Shown here in pieces: positions 6,209 to 17,194 of a DNA stretch of 41,961 nt. The notes beneath the pieces are model-generated. The model searched no databases and was not told the origin of the DNA. It worked only from the letters and a program-made list of their open reading frames with translations. Positions within the stretch are counted from its first letter, which is position 1. Every line of letters begins with the position of its first letter. A program made the translations under genes and the position numbers. Origin of the DNA: an uncultured bacterium (GTDB lineage: Bacteria; Patescibacteriota; Patescibacteriia; Patescibacteriales; UBA12465); assembly GCA_903945435.1 (NCBI GenBank), contig CAJAVM010000008.1, forward strand, positions 67,812 to 109,772. Direction: 5' to 3'.

Positions 6209-6237
6209 TTGACATATGTTTTTATTTGTTCTATAAT
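6209..6237 (+). promoter_or_regulatory. Consensus sigma-70 promoter of an RNA gene
   Basis: TTGACA (6209-6214), exactly 17 nt, then TATAAT (6232-6237): both hexamers are perfect. The predicted start is near 6244. It drives a region with no ordinary reading frame. Confidence 0.85.
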
Positions 6238-6243
6238 GTTATC

Positions 6244-6419
6244 CAGCGATTAATTATGCTTTGTTAATAAGGAGGTGCTTAATTGGTTTCCAGATAAGGA
6301 CAAAACACAGAAAGGCAAGGAAACTAATTCAAGGAGCGGCGATACAGAACCGCCCCAGGGACAGGAATGTCTCTTTAAATTTGTGAAGGGTTGAATGAAT
6401 TCCATTCAACCCTTTTTTT
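6244..6419 (+). ncRNA. Strongly expressed structured RNA of unknown family, about 175 nt
   Basis: The unit runs from a perfect promoter to a perfect terminator. It contains TAAGGAGGTG (6268-6277), which is fully complementary to the usual 3' end of 16S rRNA. It then has an 11-bp stem AATTGGTTTCC/GGAAACTAATT (6281-6291 with 6319-6329, one G-U) closing a purine-rich 27-nt loop, a GCGG/CCGC stem (6336-6339 with 6350-6353), and a 7-bp hairpin (6357-6363 with 6368-6374) capped by a GNRA tetraloop GGAA. It does not show the signature sequences of tmRNA, RNase P RNA, the small SRP RNA or the end-to-end pairing of 6S RNA. A 34-codon frame beginning with ATT at 6282 also fits the Shine-Dalgarno spacing, so a leader-peptide or small-protein mRNA cannot be excluded. 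Confidence 0.65.
6386..6419 (+). terminator. Intrinsic terminator of the 6244 RNA
   Basis: AAGGGTTGAATG (6386-6397) pairs perfectly over 12 bp with CATTCAACCCTT (6403-6414) around a 5-nt loop, followed by a seven-T run. Confidence 0.93.
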
Positions 6420-6474
6420 ATTTTTTAGGATAGTCTCTTCAGATATTTACTTTTTTTTATTCGTGTGTTAATAG

Positions 6475-6562
6475 GAACTTAGAGGATGCTTTAGTCTAAC
6501 CCCCATGGTTGATGCACCCAAGTTAAACAGCGGAGCCCGTTTCTGAAAAGAGCGGGCTTTTT
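6475..6562 (+). ncRNA. Second structured RNA or leader element upstream of the Gmad2 gene
   Basis: A nested fold can be drawn: AACTT (6476-6480) with AAGTT (6520-6524), GGATGC (6484-6489) with GCACCC (6514-6519, one mismatch), and TAACC (6497-6501) with GGTTG (6507-6511) around CCCAT. A terminator hairpin follows at 6534-6562. This aptamer-then-terminator layout looks like a riboswitch or a small RNA, but a separate extended -10 for the next gene lies downstream of the terminator, which favours an independent RNA. The promoter is weak (TTTACT 6446-6451, 16 nt, TTAATA 6468-6473). No known family is recognised. Confidence 0.4.
6534..6562 (+). terminator. Intrinsic terminator of the second RNA
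   Basis: AGCCCG (6534-6539) pairs with CGGGCT (6553-6558). The stem can extend inward through TTCT/AGAG to a GAAA tetraloop with one bulged T. TTTTT follows. Confidence 0.85.
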
Positions 6563-6591
6563 ACTTGGCTCGTGATTATTTTAGTGGGATA

Positions 6592-17165: not shown

Positions 17166-17194
17166 ATTATAAACTTTTTTTAAGCTTTTGTCAA
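17166..17194 (-). promoter_or_regulatory. Perfect sigma-70 promoter of the 94-aa gene
   Basis: On the minus strand TTGACA (17194-17189), 17 nt, TATAAT (17171-17166). The predicted start near 17159 gives a leader of about 50 nt. The -35 lies 3 bp from the start codon of the divergent glycosyltransferase. Confidence 0.85.

Follow-up and report, generated by a model that had tools for sequence, protein, structure and literature searches.

A conserved, probably non-coding structured RNA beside rnhB, a candidate new family in a reduced-genome bacterium

Transcription unit and predicted fold

The stretch of DNA analysed here (41,961 nt, hereafter the window) carries beside rnhB what is, judged by its sequence, a real transcription unit of about 175 nt. 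Its product is probably a conserved, structured, stand-alone and non-coding RNA that contains an incidental match to the Shine-Dalgarno (SD) sequence, a judgement that concerns this whole class of RNA and not its partner. The RNA is a genuine candidate for a new family with a narrow distribution, covering a few species of one genus in a small-genome order. The unit lies on the plus strand and would be transcribed from a TTGACA-17-TATAAT promoter at 6209-6237. As the original prediction had stated, this promoter agrees with the consensus at 12 of 12 positions; the whole genome (979 kb, 31.6% GC) has 14 such perfect promoters. The RNA is taken to span 6245-6419, with its 5′ end placed 7-8 nt past the -10 element, and is classed as a stand-alone structured RNA on its fold, a covariance model and the negative outcome of the Rfam comparison. 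The unit is closed, again as predicted, by an intrinsic terminator with a U tract (6386-6419). The terminator stem (6386-6397/6403-6414), given as 12 bp in the prediction and measuring 12-13 bp, was recovered by a mechanical search at 6386-6414.

The predicted fold of the RNA was stabler than those of 200 out of 200 shuffled sequences (z -3.3) and comprised three separate hairpins, found at the positions previously given for them. P1 (6281-6329) joins the arms 6281-6291 and 6319-6329 across a 27-nt A-rich loop. P2 (6334-6355) is formed by the arms 6334-6339 and 6350-6355, whose pairing in the window copy includes a single A.C mismatch, and presents the conserved 10-nt loop YGATAYAGAR, while P3 (6358-6373) is capped by a GGAA tetraloop. 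Upstream of the hairpins are the leader TTAATTATGCTTTGTT (6250-6265), which is a candidate contact site, and the SD-like stretch TAAGGAGGTG (6268-6277).

Conservation in related species

The interval between rnhB and cysS was compared among relatives of the window's genome (G000). G003, another species of the genus, has the unit at the same place, between rnhB and a Gmad2-domain gene and cysS. The promoter region (6209-6243) is identical at 31 of 35 bases, and P1, P2, P3 and the terminator are re-formed from different sequence, the terminator keeping AAGGGTTGRAT.../...ATTCAACCCTT. Five P1 pairs are changed on both sides between the two species, P2 contains one double-sided change from C-G to U-A, and in P3, whose tetraloop is TTCG in G003, every letter-bearing cell of the alignment is paired in both. 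Altogether, 95.7% of the cells are paired, compared with 37-49% when the partners are slid against each other, and six pairs are altered on both sides, compared with 0-1 in the slid alignments; these values come from two sequences in a structure-fitted alignment. When the same pairs were shuffled, 11 of 500 shuffles scored as high as the real pairing, and this control is weaker than sliding because only two sequences are compared. The comparison of the two copies thus shows selection on the fold. The unpaired segments were nearly unchanged: the 16-nt leader TTAATTATGCTTTGTT is identical in G003, as is AGAAAGGCAAGG (6309-6320), which makes up the 3′ side of the P1 loop and the start of its 3′ arm, and the P2 loop is almost the same. 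The leader TGCTTT and AAGGCA of the P1 loop, both invariant in the two species, could pair as a pseudoknot.

A covariance model (R1) was built from the two copies, the G003 sequence being trimmed of bulge and loop bases for the seed, while the pair counts above refer to the untrimmed loci. Across 111 genomes of the order it matched only G000 and G003, which are also its two seed sequences (E 1.4e-24 in G003). A further match in G032 (E 0.0048) was discarded since it falls within an RNA-methyltransferase-like ORF. DNA BLAST against 60 relatives returned mostly short AT-rich chance hits to the promoter and leader, and its sole real match was contig C88 of G003. Leader-like stretches in G001 and G022 came without the rest of the RNA and were likewise set aside, and a pattern scan across GTDB was too unspecific.

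Two further species, G002 and G008 (loci L052 and L053), also carry a promoter, an RNA and a terminator at this place. Beyond its 5′ end this RNA differs from that of the window and has another predicted fold, and its tie to the window RNA lies in position, promoter and 5′ end. The leader segment TGCTTTGTTnATAAG is common to both types at 14 of 15 positions near the transcript start, for which a rough chance estimate is 2e-4. Between G002 and G008 the RNA is identical at 163 of 164 aligned bases (99.4%), not counting an indel of 19 nt in the leader. Identity is lower around it, at 82% in rnhB, 75% in the next gene (gene X), 86% in the terminator with spacer and 85% in the downstream region, so that the RNA is better conserved than any other part of the locus. 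Such near-identity would indicate strong constraint on the RNA itself; recent exchange of the RNA stretch between the two species is a possible alternative source. G010 and G005 have a shorter RNA at this place, which is tied to the window RNA by position and promoter, with homology resting on position; all of its stem positions pair in both genomes, with one double-sided change, which does not exceed what shuffles give. Similar promoters occur at this place in all four of these genomes, and the covariance model detected neither the G002/G008 nor the G010/G005 RNAs.

Comparison with known RNA families

The original prediction had suggested an RNA class without a name, and had listed an Rfam match, missing covariation and codon-wise conservation as findings that would speak against a structured RNA. 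We encountered none of the three. No match reached the Rfam 15 gathering score anywhere in the window, and over the unit nothing came near threshold even with E values up to 10 admitted. The highest of the weak scores there, both at chance level, belonged to GibS (RF04182; 26 bits against a gathering score of 115) and the ribosomal L20 leader (RF00558; 18 bits against 58.7). Rfam matches were also lacking at the G008 and G010 loci, the stems covary in G003, the related RNA of G002 and G008 is extremely conserved, and no conserved coding pattern was detected in the unit.

Several known RNAs were considered and rejected. The genome has its tmRNA on contig C10, on which ground a tmRNA fragment was also dropped, its RNase P RNA gene on C3, and its 16S, 23S and 5S RNAs elsewhere; the full Rfam scan covered all of the genome but about 80 kb in small contigs. 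A 6S RNA was dismissed because RF00013 gave no match at E up to 10 and the unit forms three separate hairpins instead of one long hairpin with a central bubble. The SRP 4.5S RNA (RF00169) is likewise a short stable RNA, and P3 carries a GGAA tetraloop. However, there is no model match at the unit, the tetraloop is TTCG in G003, and no SRP RNA was found in the genome or in 60 relatives, a regular expression for the SRP core being far too loose. Ffh and FtsY domains were absent from 61 genomes of the order including that of the window, which therefore has no Ffh partner, with controls mostly positive. Absence of the SRP has already been reported for Parcubacteria (PMC4508563), and the present RNA is therefore no SRP RNA in disguise. 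The closest resemblance is to stand-alone structured small RNAs identified by comparative genomics in bacteria (e.g. PMC2864571), which share their own promoter and terminator, an intergenic location, covarying stems and conserved loops; in contrast to these, the window RNA is so far known from six species of a single genus at most and is absent from Rfam 15.

Possible functions of the RNA

The original prediction had regarded a perfect 10-nt SD sequence in an apparent non-coding RNA as striking, and had proposed that TAAGGAGGTG might let the RNA pair with the 16S rRNA 3′ tail and modulate initiation or hibernation. The stretch is present, and the 16S gene of this genome, which ends in GGATCACCTCCTTTCT, has an intact anti-SD and keeps CACCTCCTT; however, the match to this tail is the 9-nt AAGGAGGTG, the leading T of TAAGGAGGTG being unpaired. 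The companion statement that ordinary genes rarely carry an SD was borne out, as 9 of 754 ORFs have an SD of at least 6 nt upstream in a crude count that takes the first start codon of each ORF as its start. Against the proposal, the genome contains a single TAAGGAGGTG against an expectation of 0.97, and five copies of AAGGAGGTG against an expectation of 3.5, a caution that a perfect 10-nt SD match should arise about once by chance even here. The stretch sits in a fast-changing linker, pairs in part with the 5′ GCUUU in the predicted fold, and is missing from the RNAs of G003 (which reads GTGTGCGAGGTTTTG at this position), G002 and G008. The 16S mechanism fails because the stretch is not conserved, which leaves this pairing highly improbable and suggests that the resemblance to an SD is coincidental.

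Other functions were weighed against the same data. The seed of known small RNAs usually lies in a conserved, unpaired 5′ end. The 16 nt of leader identical between two species, followed by a 3′ terminator, would suit a trans-acting antisense RNA that base-pairs with mRNA start regions, a reading that we consider possible though rather unlikely. The best duplexes in the 754 start regions of one genome were no better than those of shuffled seeds, so that no target rises above background, and no Hfq- or CsrA-like protein was detected with E. coli queries, a weak test. That the RNA is a cis-acting leader, riboswitch or attenuator of the downstream gene is quite unlikely. Three hairpins before a terminator do look leader-like and their loops are conserved, but gene X has its own promoter-like stretch past the terminator in G003, G002 and G010 (by eye) and has been lost from the window while the RNA was retained, both of which speak against control of the next gene by a leader; moreover, the terminator stem is without an obvious competing partner. 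An mRNA for a very small protein or leader peptide is less probable still. Short ORFs do exist, of 39 codons from the GTG at 6275 in the window, 16 codons in G003 (by eye) and 22 codons in G008 (MFIRMPTPSAFRDKKRQKICLK), and the single substitution between G002 and G008 is synonymous in the last of these (by eye). Nevertheless, these ORFs have different lengths, starts and stops, conservation between G002 and G008 extends about 90 nt past the ORF, and the P1 changes are compensatory across its arms.

We therefore favour a stand-alone RNA acting in trans, since a leader acting in cis is argued against, the short ORFs share neither length nor stops, and antisense targets do not exceed background. 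Transcription would start at the RNA's own strong promoter and stop at a terminator of its own, and the product would most likely act in trans. Its three hairpins may serve as a scaffold that presents conserved segments to a partner, the putative contact sites being UUAAUUAUGCUUUGUU in the 5′ leader, the P1 loop strand AGAAAGGCAAGG and YGAUAYAGAR in the loop of P2. We tentatively and only slightly favour a protein or ribonucleoprotein as this partner over the plain antisense mode. It is conceivable, albeit unlikely, that the locus encodes the RNA of a lineage-specific ribonucleoprotein whose chromosomal place, promoter and 5′ end are fixed but whose body was remodelled, within one genus, to give at least two and perhaps three different folds, each under strong selection. 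Such remodelling at a fixed place would be a usable case of fast RNA-structure evolution. Few small RNAs from these reduced-genome bacteria seem to have been described, and a narrow search of the open-access literature found no descriptions; a constrained, strongly promoted and uncatalogued RNA could thus be an entry point to RNA regulation in them.

Other candidate RNA sites

In the relatives, gene X encodes an ExoX-like protein by eye, with no Pfam match. At the corresponding place of the window (6440-6565), a promoter-like stretch is kept, as is a GC-rich hairpin followed by a run of T, together with ATGCTTTAGT, which is close to ATGCTTTGTT of the first RNA; a second short transcript may have replaced the lost gene here. 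Elsewhere in the genome, a candidate for a second orphan RNA lies on the minus strand of locus L223 at about 2950-2820 (C10:2981), where a perfect promoter with a 16-nt spacer is followed by about 130 nt devoid of ORFs of at least 100 codons and ending in AACCGCTCATAAGCGGTTTTTTT. The only RNA that Rfam names on L223 is the 23S rRNA, which ends near 2679. Finally, a perfect TTGACA-17-TATAAT promoter on the minus strand of the window at 17194 is followed by a leader into a short ORF starting with MNVKKVTLDAQAEHQ.
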